Positions 817 to 9,533 of a stretch of DNA of 45,207 bases are shown piece by piece. Made by a program: the position numbers and the translations under genes. The notes under the pieces are model-generated. The model worked only from the letters and a program-made list of their open reading frames with translations. It was not told where the DNA came from and did no database searches. The stretch comes from an uncultured Rubritalea sp. (GTDB taxonomy: Bacteria; Verrucomicrobiota; Verrucomicrobiia; Verrucomicrobiales; Akkermansiaceae), in assembly GCA_937132085.1 (NCBI GenBank), contig CAKZNV010000032.1, forward strand, positions 1 through 45,207, written 5' to 3'. Each line of letters starts with the position of its first letter. Position 1 is the first letter of the stretch.

Positions 817-1194
817 ATGAAAAGAACATACAAAACAATCCTCATGAGTGGAGCAGCTGCGATTTCCGTAGTAGCTCTCGCTTCATGTGGAGATAAACAA
901 GATAATGCAACAACTAGCCCAGACACGGCTCCAGTTGCTACAACCGACTCAGCTCCTGCTGTTGCTGCCCCTGCTAAGACAGAGACAGTCAGCCTAGAGC
1001 TTTCAGGACTCAAGTGAGCATCTGGTTGCCCACCGAAAGTGCAGTCTGCACTTTCAAAACTAGATGGAGTCACAGTAGATGATGTTACTAAAACATCCGC
1101 TAAAGTAACAGTAGACAGGTCTAAAGTCAGCGACGAACAAATCGTCCAAGCTGTCACCAATGCAGGCCATGGCTACTCCGCCACAGTTAAATAA
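817..1194 (+). CDS. HMA/MerP-like lipoprotein, predicted selenoprotein (Sec67)
   Basis: Read through the TGA at 1015-1017, this is a continuous 125-residue protein ending in TAA. Residues 1-24 are a lipoprotein signal peptide with lipobox LASC (Cys24). An Ala/Thr/Pro-rich linker follows, then one heavy-metal-associated domain at about residues 57-125. The metal loop reads GLK-U67-ASGC71-PPKV, where MerP and related domains have GMTCxxCP. Stopping at TGA would remove nearly the whole domain, while the part after it is intact and ends in the typical NAGHGYSATVK. The TGA is followed by a SECIS-like hairpin. A paralogue 24 bp downstream has TGA at the same site. HMA domains bind soft metals such as Hg or Cu through the loop, so a surface-anchored metal-binding or redox role is inferred. 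The metal and partner are unknown. Confidence 0.85.
1015..1055 (+). promoter_or_regulatory. SECIS-like element of first HMA gene (TGA plus hairpin)
   Basis: The in-frame TGA is at 1015-1017. A perfect 9-bp stem follows, GAAAGTGCA (1035-1043) pairing with TGCACTTTC (1047-1055), closed by the loop GTC (1044-1046). The loop G lies 27 nt after the TGA. This is within the window of roughly 16-37 nt known for bacterial SECIS elements, which need a G at the start of the apical loop. The loop-proximal part GCA-GUC-UGC is close to the GCA-GGUC-UGC of E. coli fdhF. The bulged U of the E. coli helix is absent. The element lies inside the coding region, as bacterial SECIS elements do. Confidence 0.85.
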
Positions 1195-1218
1195 TTCAAC
1201 CAGCTAACCTAAAGAATA

Positions 1219-1548
1219 ATGAAAAATACATTATCACTCGCACTAGCTGGCGCCATTCTGATTACTGCGCCAGCATTGATCTCATGTGCTACACCTACAG
1301 AAGCTGTTCAGGCTCTTGATACCAACGCGAAAGTAGAGACAGTAAATCTAGGCCTCTCAGGTCTACTTTGAGCATCTGGATGCCCACCAAAAGTGCAGTC
1401 TGCACTTTTAAAAGTATCAGGAGTATCTAGTGCATCAGTCACTAAAACTACCGCCGCTGTTGTCATCGACCGCAACAAAGTCACCAACGCCCAGCTCATC
1501 AAAGCTGTCCAATCTGCTGGTGATGGCTTCAACGCCACTGTAAAGTAG
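1219..1548 (+). CDS. HMA/MerP-like lipoprotein, predicted selenoprotein (Sec51)
   Basis: Read through the TGA at 1369-1371, this gives 109 residues ending in TAG. The signal peptide ends in a lipobox, ALISC with Cys23. A short linker follows and then a single HMA domain at about residues 41-109, with the loop GLL-U51-ASGC55-PPKV. The domain is about 62% identical to that of the preceding gene by hand alignment, so the two are tandem duplicates. The longest identical run is the 13 residues from U to L that also encode the hairpin. The linker is shorter than in the first gene. The ATG at 1219 is 24 bp after the first gene's stop, and a strong terminator follows, so the two genes are probably one transcript. 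Function is inferred only as surface metal binding or thiol/selenol redox chemistry. Confidence 0.85.
1369..1409 (+). promoter_or_regulatory. SECIS-like element of second HMA gene (TGA plus hairpin)
   Basis: The TGA is at 1369-1371. A 9-bp stem pairs AAAAGTGCA (1389-1397) with TGCACTTTT (1401-1409) around a GTC loop at 1398-1400. The loop G is 27 nt after the TGA, exactly as in the first gene. The outermost pair is A-T here and G-C in the first copy. This double change keeps the helix, although one side changes Ser to Leu in the protein. Over the 45 nt starting at TGA the two genes differ at only three positions, while the flanking codons diverge much more. That pattern points to selection on the RNA. 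Confidence 0.85.
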
Positions 1549-1566: not shown

Positions 1567-1600
1567 ACGGAACGCGTCCCCCCTCGTTCCGTTTTTTTTT
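1567..1600 (+). terminator. Rho-independent terminator after the selenoprotein pair
   Basis: ACGGAACG at 1567-1574 pairs with CGTTCCGT at 1585-1592 around a C-rich loop, and nine T residues follow at 1592-1600. It lies 19 bp after the stop of the second HMA gene and closes the two-gene unit ahead of priA. Confidence 0.9.
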
Positions 1601-1696: not shown

Positions 1697-3928
1697 ATGT
1701 CAGACAATACTCAGAGCATCTTTACCGCAGCCAAAGTCCTTATCGACGGCCCCTCTGAGCTAGTGTTCGACTACGCCATCCCAGAAGGCATTGGTGACGT
1801 CGTAGTAGGCTGCCGAGTCCGCATCCCACTGCGTAATAGAAACTCCACTGGAACTGTCCTAGAGATAGGCACCCCACCACAGAGCGATTTCACCCTCCGC
1901 CCACTTCACTCTCTCATAGATCCTGAGCCACTCATCACCCCTACGCTCATGAAGCTAGGACGCTGGCTGGCCGACTACTATAACGCTCCCATGGAACAAG
2001 TCATGCGAGCACTCCTACCTGAGTCCGTCCGTCAAGACGCCCACTCAGAGAAGACTCGTAAAGTAGTCGTCCTAGAAAACATGCCAGACGAAGAGGCTCG
2101 CCAGAAGCTTGCTAAAAAGGCACCCAAGCAGAACCTCATCCTCACACTCCTAGAAGCAGCCTCTGGACAAATAGCTCTAGCCGACCTAGGCGGAGGCTCC
2201 GTCACAGCTTCAGTAAAATCACTAGAGAAAAAAGGCTACGTCACCATGAAGCACGAAGCCGTGCGCCGAGATCCAGACGAGGACCAAGAGTTCATGGAGT
2301 CCTTTCCACTCAAGCTAAACCCTGAGCAAGACGTCATTCTCAAAGAAATCCTCAACCCCGAAAACACCAAACCATTTCTCCTCCACGGAGTCACAGGATC
2401 AGGCAAGACTGAAGTCTACCTGCAAGCCGTCCAACACCAGCTCGACCTCGGAAAATCCGCACTCATCCTCATCCCAGAAATCTCGCTCACCCCACAGACT
2501 GTGCAGCGATTTAAATCCCGCTTCGCCTCACTCCAGGACCAAGTCGCAGTCCTCCACTCCCACCTCTCACAAGGAGAACGATTCGATGAATGGCACCGCA
2601 TCCGTAAAGGCAAAGCACGCATCGTCATCGGAGCTCGCTCAGCCATCTTCGCCCCACTAACAAATCTCGGAATCATCGTAGTAGATGAAGAACACGAGAA
2701 CACCTACAAGCAAGAAACCTCGCCACGCTACCACGGCAGAGACATCGCCGTGCTCCGTGCCCACATGGAAAAGTGCGACATCGTCCTAGGCTCAGCCACC
2801 CCATCACTAGAGAGTTTCCACAATACCCAAACAGGAAAATACCAGCTGCTCAAACTCACCCTCAGAGCCGACCACCAGACCATGCCCATCATTCGTGTCC
2901 TCGACATGAAAATAGAAGCCCAAAAGCAAAAAGGCCGCATGGCTATCCTCTCTGACAAGCTCCGTCTCTCCATGGAGAACAAGCTCAAAAACGGAGAACA
3001 AATCATCCTCTTCCTAAACCGCCGAGGCTTCGCTCGTTCCCTCCAGTGCCCACCCTGCGGCCACGTTTGCGAATGCCAGCACTGCGCCATCCCACTCACT
3101 TACCACCGCACAGAAGAGCGACTCGTCTGCCACATGTGCGGCTACCAGTCCATCACCCCACGCAAGTGTCCATCCTGCGGAGACAAAGCGATCCGACTAC
3201 AAGGTTTCGGCACAGAAAAGGTAGAAGAAGTCATCAAGAAAGTCTTCCCCCAAGCCAGACTAGCCCGCATCGACGCTGACTCCATGCGCCGCAAAAACGC
3301 CCTGCGTGACACCCTGGCTAAATTCAAAGCCAACAAGATAGACATCATCATCGGCACCCAGATGATCGCTAAAGGACTACACTTTCCTAACGTAACCCTA
3401 GTAGGTATTCTCAACGCAGACCTAGGCCTCCACGTCCCAGACTTCCGAGCTGGTGAGCGCACATTCCAGCTCATCACTCAGGTCGCTGGCAGAGCGGGTA
3501 GAGGAGAGCTAGAAGGCGAAGTAGTCATCCAGACTCACACTCCACACTCACCGTCCATCCAGTTTGCTCGTCACCATGATTTCGAAGGCTACGCTGAACA
3601 AGAACTCCAATTCCGCAATCAATTCGGCTACCCACCCTTCTCCCACGTAGCCACACTAGGCACCCGCTCCACCCACGAGCGCAGAGCAGAATTCACCCTA
3701 GAGAATCTCCATAAACGCCTCAAAGCCTCCGTCCCACCACAGATAGAACTAGGCGAACCAATGCCCTCCCCTCTCACCAAAACTCACGGCCAATTCCGTT
3801 ATCAGCTAATGATCAAATCCACCTCGGCCAGACTCCTCTCCCATCACGTCCGAGCCATCCTAAAACAAACTCCCCCCCCAGAAGACGTAAATATCGTCTT
3901 CGACATGGACGCCCTGAGCTTTTTCTAG
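1697..3928 (+). CDS. priA: Primosomal protein N' (replication restart helicase)
   Basis: The 743-residue product has the full PriA layout. The N-terminal DNA-binding part covers residues 1-110. A superfamily 2 helicase follows with Walker A GVTGSGKT at 231-238 and DEEH at 330-333. A zinc-binding insert has four CxxC pairs (Cys451/454, 460/463, 478/481, 491/494), plus an extra Cys458. A second helicase lobe contains the GTQMIAKG and QVAGRAGRG motifs, and a C-terminal domain ends the protein. PriA recognises stalled replication forks, unwinds DNA 3'-5' and reloads the replicative helicase. The length is normal for the family. The ATG at 1697 has no Shine-Dalgarno sequence. It sits about 100 bp beyond the preceding terminator and is probably transcribed alone. 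The stop is TAG. Confidence 0.97.
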   Translation: MSDNTQSIFTAAKVLIDGPSELVFDYAIPEGIGDVVVGCRVRIPLRNRNSTGTVLEIGTPPQSDFTLRPLHSLIDPEPLITPTLMKLGRWLADYYNAPMEQVMRALLPESVRQDAHSEKTRKVVVLENMPDEEARQKLAKKAPKQNLILTLLEAASGQIALADLGGGSVTASVKSLEKKGYVTMKHEAVRRDPDEDQEFMESFPLKLNPEQDVILKEILNPENTKPFLLHGVTGSGKTEVYLQAVQHQLDLGKSALILIPEISLTPQTVQRFKSRFASLQDQVAVLHSHLSQGERFDEWHRIRKGKARIVIGARSAIFAPLTNLGIIVVDEEHENTYKQETSPRYHGRDIAVLRAHMEKCDIVLGSATPSLESFHNTQTGKYQLLKLTLRADHQTMPIIRVLDMKIEAQKQKGRMAILSDKLRLSMENKLKNGEQIILFLNRRGFARSLQCPPCGHVCECQHCAIPLTYHRTEERLVCHMCGYQSITPRKCPSCGDKAIRLQGFGTEKVEEVIKKVFPQARLARIDADSMRRKNALRDTLAKFKANKIDIIIGTQMIAKGLHFPNVTLVGILNADLGLHVPDFRAGERTFQLITQVAGRAGRGELEGEVVIQTHTPHSPSIQFARHHDFEGYAEQELQFRNQFGYPPFSHVATLGTRSTHERRAEFTLENLHKRLKASVPPQIELGEPMPSPLTKTHGQFRYQLMIKSTSARLLSHHVRAILKQTPPPEDVNIVFDMDALSFF

Positions 3929-8684: not shown

Positions 8685-9533
8685 ATGCAGCATTTCTTAT
8701 CATCAGAGTTCCCTCAATCTTCACCACAAGACGCCCACTTTCACATCATCCCAGTCCCACTAGAGGAGTCAGTTTCCTACGGGGAAGGAACCTATCTAGG
8801 ACCAGCGGCCATACTAGAGTCATCTTATCAGCTAGAAGCTCACGACGGCACCTCTTACCCTGGAGAACTAGGTATGCACACTGCTGATGCAGTCGACTGC
8901 ATAGGCGATATTCAAGCATCATTCAAGCGGATCGAAGATGCCTGCACACCTGTTTATAAAGCCGCTAAAATCCCTATTATTCTTGGAGGAGAGCATTCAC
9001 TGAGCATCGGACCTGTTAGAGCGCTACATAAGCTTCGCCAAGACTTCGGAGTCGTCCAGATAGATGCTCATGCTGACCTACGTGATAGCTACGAAGACAG
9101 CCCACACAGTCATGCATGCGTCATGCGCCGTATTCACGAGCTAGGCATCCCCATCTTCCAGATAGGAGTTAGAAACCTCTGCAAAGAAGAGATAGACTAT
9201 CGAGCAGAGCACAACATCCCCTACTTAGACGCCAGAGAAATCTACCAAAAAGGAATTCCAGCAGATCTCTTCCCAGCAGATTTCCCTAAAAACATTTACC
9301 TCAGCTTCGACGTAGATGGTCTAGATGCCTCCCTCATGCCAGCTACTGGAACCCCAGAACCAGGCGGACTCAACTGGTGGCAAGCCTTAGAGCTCTGTGA
9401 AAAAGCAGCTCATGGCAGAAAAGTGTTAGGTATAGACATCGTAGAATTAGCCCCACAGCCAGCCCTCCACTCCAGCAGCTACACAGCCGCTAAGCTGACC
9501 TACGCCCTAATGGGAATAGCAGCTAGATCATAG
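8685..9533 (+). CDS. speB: Agmatinase (agmatine ureohydrolase)
   Basis: The 282-residue ureohydrolase splits agmatine into putrescine and urea at a binuclear manganese site. All metal-binding motifs are present: GGEHS (His104), DAHADLRD (Asp127, His129, Asp131) and SFDVDGLD (Asp209, Asp211). The frame is open upstream into the end of nspC. I chose the ATG at 8685 because it begins at the usual distance before the first family segment and does not overlap nspC. Arginase and formiminoglutamase share the fold, but the speA and nspC neighbours favour agmatinase. The gene ends in TAG, only 18 bp from the convergent MATE gene, with no convincing terminator between them. Confidence 0.93.
   Translation: MQHFLSSEFPQSSPQDAHFHIIPVPLEESVSYGEGTYLGPAAILESSYQLEAHDGTSYPGELGMHTADAVDCIGDIQASFKRIEDACTPVYKAAKIPIILGGEHSLSIGPVRALHKLRQDFGVVQIDAHADLRDSYEDSPHSHACVMRRIHELGIPIFQIGVRNLCKEEIDYRAEHNIPYLDAREIYQKGIPADLFPADFPKNIYLSFDVDGLDASLMPATGTPEPGGLNWWQALELCEKAAHGRKVLGIDIVELAPQPALHSSSYTAAKLTYALMGIAARS

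Follow-up and report, generated by a model that had tools for sequence, protein, structure and literature searches.

Does an in-frame TGA in the metal-binding loop of a small exported protein stand for selenocysteine (Sec), and, if it does, what would such a residue do there? The question is raised by two adjacent genes in a 45,207 nt stretch of DNA from an uncultured Rubritalea sp. (GCA_937132085.1, contig CAKZNV010000032.1, positions 1-45,207, forward), which was analysed as a whole, is called the window throughout and supplies the coordinates used below. We think it probable that both products are genuine selenoproteins, made by hairpin-directed decoding of UGA and exported as lipoproteins, in which a UxxxC pair most likely captures a soft metal. 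The features on which the argument turns are as follows.

817-1194, forward strand: selenoprotein gene 1, with a lipoprotein signal (LASC), a linker and one MerP/HMA-like domain with the motif G-L-K-U-A-S-G-C
1015-1017, forward strand: Sec-TGA of gene 1, codon 67
1035-1055, forward strand: SECIS-like apical hairpin of gene 1, GAAAGTGCA-GTC-TGCACTTTC, starting 17 bases 3' of the TGA
1219-1548, forward strand: selenoprotein gene 2, with a lipoprotein signal (LISC) followed by one MerP/HMA-like domain, motif G-L-L-U-A-S-G-C
1369-1371, forward strand: Sec-TGA of gene 2, codon 51
1389-1409, forward strand: SECIS-like apical hairpin of gene 2, AAAAGTGCA-GTC-TGCACTTTT
1567-1600, forward strand: probable intrinsic terminator for both genes, ACGGAAC ... 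GTTCCGT followed by a T run, found by eye

The Gene Pair

The two genes lie in tandem on the same strand, separated by 24 bases, and each ORF contains exactly one in-frame TGA, beyond which the frame stays open to a TAA in the first (product of 125 aa) and a TAG in the second (109 aa). The initial annotation had described adjacent paralogues with a TGA at the position of the metal-loop Cys and intact frames beyond it, and this is confirmed at codons 67 and 51; the domain identity of about 62% that it gave is 62% as measured here, against 47% over the whole length. Lipoboxes are recognised by eye in both sequences, LASC in protein 1 and LISC in protein 2, and on this motif both proteins are predicted to be exported and lipidated. 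Of 84 relatives, 47 fit a loosely defined lipobox pattern, and many of the other 37 resemble plain signal peptides by eye. The terminator scan, which has a loop limit of 8, reported no terminator; the stem seen by eye downstream of gene 2 has a loop of 12.

Selenocysteine Machinery and the Use of TGA

Whether the genome has selB and a tRNA-Sec had been set beforehand as a test of the selenoprotein reading, and the window's own genome (G000; 4,456,563 bases) holds both, together with SelA and SelD. The tRNA-Sec, at 58.3 bits against a gathering score of 47, is reported by ARAGORN as tRNA-SeC with anticodon TCA, SelB scores 305.6 bits (cut-off 242.25), SelA 502.6 bits (cut-off 267.9) and SelD 373.4 bits (cut-off 125), and SelD has an in-frame TGA of its own and reads GGUASK.

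A changed code or a suppressor tRNA that makes TGA an ordinary amino acid (Trp, Gly or Cys) would also keep the frames open, and TGA is indeed rare as a stop: in a G000 sample of 403,807 bases it ends 15 of the 249 ORFs that reach 200 aa (TAA ends 155 and TAG 79), and in the window none of the 29 ORFs of that length. Yet a general code change in G000 is ruled out by those 15 stops and by the ORFs of 120 aa or more that result when TGA is treated as sense: of these 303, 247 contain no TGA, 30 have one and 26 have more than one (many of these 26 looking by eye like chance frames). The full Sec machinery of G000, the Cys that homologues have at the TGA position and the hairpin that follows the TGA in 29 of 30 domains (both set out below) also stand against this explanation, which we regard as extremely improbable. 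TGA in this Rubritalea-type host is recoded, with no general reassignment.

Among the one-TGA ORFs of the G000 sample are three that encode thioredoxin-fold proteins, all likely selenoproteins: one with WUGPC (L242:6908-7954, forward strand, contig C183) and a neighbouring pair with WUPPC (L253:7989-8573 and 8707-9306, forward strand, contig C154).

Conservation of the TGA Among Relatives

Searching 142 genomes (the window's own included) with protein 1 yields 52 match rows in 37 genomes, and 30 of these rows, spread over 22 of the 142 genomes, carry a single TGA, always at the same motif position, which is more than chance. One of them is a third TGA-bearing copy in G000, on contig C131. The motif reads G-[LMV]-x-U-x-x-x-C in 29 of the 30 TGA-bearing domains and UGGC in the remaining one (G116). 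Homologues were to be checked for a Cys in place of the TGA, and they have it: 15 of the 22 TGA-free rows were read and all 15 carry a loop Cys, as do the solved structures aligned to the family. TGA-free Cys homologues from the same genus and family are mostly two-domain GMTCxxC proteins.

A SECIS-Like Hairpin and Constraint at the RNA Level

The hairpin 3' of the TGA, present in 29 of the 30 TGA-bearing domains, has up to nine pairs and a three-base loop and begins 17 bases after the TGA, and four stretches covering the two window copies fold with z of -2.5 to -3.0. In gene 2 the outer pair is A-U where gene 1 has G-C, a compensatory change. The hairpin and motif figures given here come from the set found by protein similarity and not from the DNA pattern set described below. 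For the hairpin, 27 of the 30 domains were aligned (A1), leaving out L059 and L068 (identical over 60 bases) and L073 (different spacing); a second alignment (A2) holds 28 of the 30, without L059 and L068. Across the 27 copies four pairs (GTGC/GCAC) are invariant and the loop-closing pair is AU in 20, GU in 4 and GC in 3, with no failures, and the two outermost pairs are broken in 15 and 17 copies. The percentage paired and the covariation score, the latter open to inflation by kinship, each exceed 500 of 500 shuffles; the number of further pair types was equalled or beaten in 134 of 500 shuffles and that of pairs changed on both sides in 27 of 500, and neither stands out.

Codon choice within the hairpin arms is fixed. 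In the 28 of 30 domains counted (all found by protein similarity, without L073 and one duplicate), the Val codon of the 5' arm is GTG in 28 of 28, compared with 77 of 390 Val codons elsewhere in these genes, and the Ala codon of the 3' arm is GCA in 28 of 28, compared with 139 of 512 Ala codons elsewhere; p-values of this test overstate the effect because the sequences are related. Protein-level constraint alone is insufficient as an explanation. A covariance model finds three strong sites in G000 (65-73 bits), all of them family genes, with the next at or below 21 bits. In 30 chosen loci it finds five Sec sites at 64-73 bits, all from its own training set, and does not match the Sec outlier L073 (G116); TGA-free homologous loci reach at most 17.1 bits and L174 reaches 24.4 bits. 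The uniform SECIS-like element, RGTGC-RGKYY-GCACT, is usable for annotating family genes.

The DNA pattern TGA-N9-TGY-N8-RGTGCRGKYYGCACT, run over genome contigs, gave 84 stretches with 89 matches, 87 of which are in-frame members of the UxxxC HMA family (a few are cut by contig ends), and these 87 are evidence for spread only, because the pattern itself fixes the TGA-to-Cys spacing and the stem. The two exceptions are L126 (Nereida) and L174, on a contig labelled Acidobacteria, which has no HMA domain upstream. Their records carry the names Verrucomicrobiota, Planctomycetota or Candidatus Poribacteria, and in some cases only "bacterium".

These data bear on the possibility that the TGA is an ordinary stop, or that the genes are pseudogenes or contain sequencing errors, so that the downstream frame is a relic. 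TGA does end the 15 long ORFs of G000 counted above; against this reading, a single TGA occupies the same motif codon in 30 domains from 22 genomes and at the 87 of 89 pattern sites, synonymous sites in the hairpin are constrained and its pairs show compensatory changes, and at one locus of an uncultured Rubritalea sp. (L108) a single frame encodes two HMA domains, both having a TGA followed by a hairpin. The conserved TGA position and the codon constraint in the hairpin rule out a chance TGA or a pseudogene, and we give this explanation almost no weight. Reading the TGA as Sec, the product of L108 is expected to contain two.

Distribution and Co-Occurrence With SelB

Of the 22 TGA-bearing genomes 20 have SelB over the cut-off, compared with 39 of the 120 others (Fisher p 2.8e-7, a value that ignores kinship). 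The TGA-bearing genomes in which SelB was not found over the cut-off are G007 and G116, and both have a tRNA-Sec near 60 bits; no tRNA-Sec match at E <= 1e-7 was found in four SelB-positive TGA-bearing genomes (G008, G072, G078 and G083). Among genomes chosen by hand for their named loci, 11 of 12 have SelB over the cut-off, or 10 of 11 new ones since G004 is a repeat; the Poribacteria genome of this set (G500) has no SelB over the cut-off. In Rubritalea profundi SAORIC-165 (L240; G004 C1:1020000-1024000), which carries one copy of the TGA family, selB extends over two reading frames, a split in this assembly that is either a real frameshift or a sequencing error.

Machinery, Cys homologues, the hairpin, a TGA form in several phyla and co-occurrence with SelB thus support the selenoprotein reading put forward in the initial annotation, and that both window genes are selenoprotein genes is strongly supported; the recoding signature, like the machinery, the fold and the conservation, was established by computation. 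With it the bacterial selenoproteome gains a large family that is easy to recognise, in phyla hardly mentioned by the selenoproteome papers searched. The family is easily missed, because annotation that takes TGA as a stop would end its proteins before the second ligand.

Fold and Relation to Known Families

With the TGA read as Cys, the window proteins match PF00403 (HMA) at 23.2 and 22.4 bits, both just under the gathering score of 24.8. In a set of 44 members (A3: the two window proteins and 42 picked among the 85 pattern matches listed), PF00403 matches 42 at E <= 0.001 (best 6.3e-15) and NF041115 matches all 44 at that threshold (best 2.6e-17). In a model of protein 1 (Sec as Cys) the elements follow the order beta-alpha-beta-beta-alpha-beta and 64 of 125 residues have pLDDT >= 90. 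Among solved structures the model matches oxidised MerP best (1osd, E 1.1e-5, 41% identity), with 1afi also found; a profile search of solved structures returns metal-binding domains of copper ATPases and MerP. In alignment the TGA falls on the first Cys of the MerP/HMA motif, and the loop is one residue longer, UxxxC as against CxxC. From fold and alignment it follows that Sec sits at the site of MerP's first Cys, which we take to be its first Hg-binding Cys, with an extra residue before the second.

MerP carries a CxxC motif and is encoded in the mer operon. Like the window proteins it consists of a single exported HMA domain (TIGR02052), but the window pair has UxxxC and no mer gene was found near it, and TIGR02052 scores it at 40.1 and 33.5 bits, with a cut-off of 92.55. 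A plasmid search returned 12 records, all below 60% identity; among the 8 of them listed, plasmid merP matches at 41-45% identity over 59-65% of the protein, and 7 of these 8 are annotated merP. The best NCBIfam match of both window proteins is NF041115 (UxxU_metal_bind), at 45.3 and 46.3 bits with a cut-off of 95. It likewise describes an HMA-like domain with Sec in the metal loop, but it has two Sec, in UxxU, where the window proteins have one, in UxxxC. The C-terminal HMA part of NF045683 (MerT_CopZ_Se) matches at 29.5 and 25.3 bits with a cut-off of 375; by its name NF045683 is a fusion with a MerT-like transporter, whereas the window proteins are stand-alone exported domains of 125 and 109 aa. 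Membership in TIGR02052, NF041115 or NF045683 was considered and rejected since the scores fall far below the cut-offs, and the nearest NCBIfam models are far under cut-off for all four family proteins scored.

Selenoproteins with related domains also appear in the literature. Table 2 of the Global Ocean Sampling (GOS) survey lists "Mercuric transport protein MerP" selenoproteins with 2 sequences and 0 Cys homologues (PMC2398784); the two come from one sample and the table gives no motif. A 2026 inventory of prokaryotic selenoproteins counts 119 families or subfamilies (PMC13188914) and, in its available text, includes NF041115 (entered in Table 1 as "putative mercuric reductase", UxxU), a MerT-type protein, a cation ATPase with UxxC and CopZ-type 2Fe-2S proteins. 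The cation-transporting ATPase E1-E2 selenoprotein (TIGR01525), listed there, is a Sec-containing metal transporter too, but it is a P-type ATPase with UxxC. A UxxxC HMA lipoprotein was not found in the available text of that inventory (PMC13188914), a UxxxC HMA family is not named in the available portions of three further papers (PMC12013277, PMC9312934, PMC4807772), and none was found in the literature searched as a whole (open-licence papers, supplements excluded).

Selenoproteins of the HMA fold are therefore a kind already known, from NF041115, NF045683 and the GOS MerP entries, and the suggestion that a surface lipoprotein with a Sec metal site would be unusual is corrected to that extent. 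What sets the family apart is the UxxxC motif, the mostly single exported domain and, for the window pair, scores far under the cut-offs of the known models.

Duplication and the Origin of Selenocysteine

No clear Cys orthologue emerged when 288 and 387 genomes of the phylum were searched, the matches being mostly long frames, such as P-type ATPases to judge by length. One genome without SelB over the cut-off (G318) encodes an exported single-domain CxxxC protein, which we considered as the missing Cys form; we do not claim that status for it because the tree groups it with other Cys domains. This tree, of 132 domains and 72 columns, is weakly resolved. In it the Sec rows do not form one clade, and their distribution takes four changes, two of which are forced by starred branches; a single origin of Sec is unsupported because the rows are split.

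G003 has two adjacent copies, and in the tree window protein 1 pairs with the first of them (99/83); protein 2 lies inside the same Rubritalea group as protein 1. This placement suggests a duplication that predates the split of these Rubritalea-group species and postdates the fixation of Sec. The initial annotation had left open whether the genes duplicated before or after the TGA was fixed; the order was most likely fixation and then duplication, because copies across the whole Rubritalea group carry the TGA.

Gene Neighbourhood and Candidate Function

The genes next to the pair in the window are a LURP-one-like ORF (under cut-off) and PriA; neither lies beside any other family copy in the loci compared, in a search that recovers both in the window. 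Around 87 distinct sites we collected 485 neighbouring ORFs, with a minimum of 70 aa and with spurious frames among them, and found no common metal-related partner. The largest neighbour cluster is an antisense frame of the family gene itself; other clusters, to judge by eye, resemble housekeeping genes from closely related organisms. Three motifs that do match in a control sample (P-type ATPase, HMA and WCxxC) occur in 0 of the 485 neighbours. Motifs of MerA and multicopper oxidase match neither in the 485 neighbours nor in the control sample, and that search is uninformative because the control gave no match either. At the level of genomes, MerA exceeds its cut-off (454.45 bits) in 0 of 142; sub-threshold matches at E <= 1e-90 occur in 83 of the 142, the best at 416.5 bits, and the TGA-bearing genomes G104 and G116 have MerA matches of 411 and 410 bits. 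A role of the UxxxC family in a mer operon is disfavoured.

We propose that SelB and tRNA-Sec would decode the in-frame UGA as Sec, with the hairpin that starts 17 bases past it directing the insertion, and that the products would be exported and lipid-anchored at the lipobox Cys. Each anchored protein would then display one MerP-like domain whose loop presents a selenol (Sec) and a thiol (Cys) as UxxxC, and this pair may capture a soft metal ion (Hg(II), Cu(I), Ag(I) or similar) in the envelope much as the CxxC of MerP would, with Sec as the stronger ligand. Surface placement and a metal site are what we infer for the window proteins from lipobox and fold, and metal binding at UxxxC, as well as the candidate metals, is argued by analogy with MerP; among putative roles, soft-metal capture in the envelope is the likeliest.

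An alternative accepts the selenoproteins but takes UxxxC for a redox couple that forms a reversible selenenyl-sulfide; the proteins would then act in the envelope as small thiol/selenol oxidoreductases or as scavengers. The 2026 inventory (PMC13188914) notes a likeness to redox proteins for many predicted bacterial selenoproteins, other TGA proteins in G000 have a thioredoxin fold with WUxxC, and the absence of metal-transport motifs nearby and of MerA over its cut-off in all 142 genomes is in keeping with such a role. The fold, however, is that of MerP/HMA and not of thioredoxin, the HMA ligand loop (G-x-x-U...C) is kept in 30 of 30 domains, and UxxxC is a wider spacing than the usual UxxC; we consider the redox role rather unlikely.

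Preferring soft-metal capture, we advance only tentatively, and with some doubt, the wider idea that this is a separate family, present in at least three phyla, which has kept Sec over Cys because the UxxxC pair forms a high-affinity soft-metal site in the envelope. If true, a trafficking or scavenging domain would use Sec to bind metal and not for redox catalysis, in organisms where a bona fide mercuric reductase was not found. The question that the family poses is that of Sec as a soft-metal ligand outside enzymes.

Outlying Members

Three loci deserve separate mention. L073 (G116, contig C43) is an outlier with UGGC, thus UxxC spacing, and a different downstream RNA, and possibly represents a separate origin of Sec in the HMA fold. 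L170, labelled Akkermansia muciniphila, carries a family member near-identical to that of L130 (a Pedosphaera MAG, "Baikal-deep"), and its label is probably wrong. L122 (the same as L070 around 3148-3406; Verrucomicrobia MAG-85) encodes a signal peptide and two HMA domains with a TGA and a hairpin each, and its linker contains two further in-frame TGAs, giving four in the frame.
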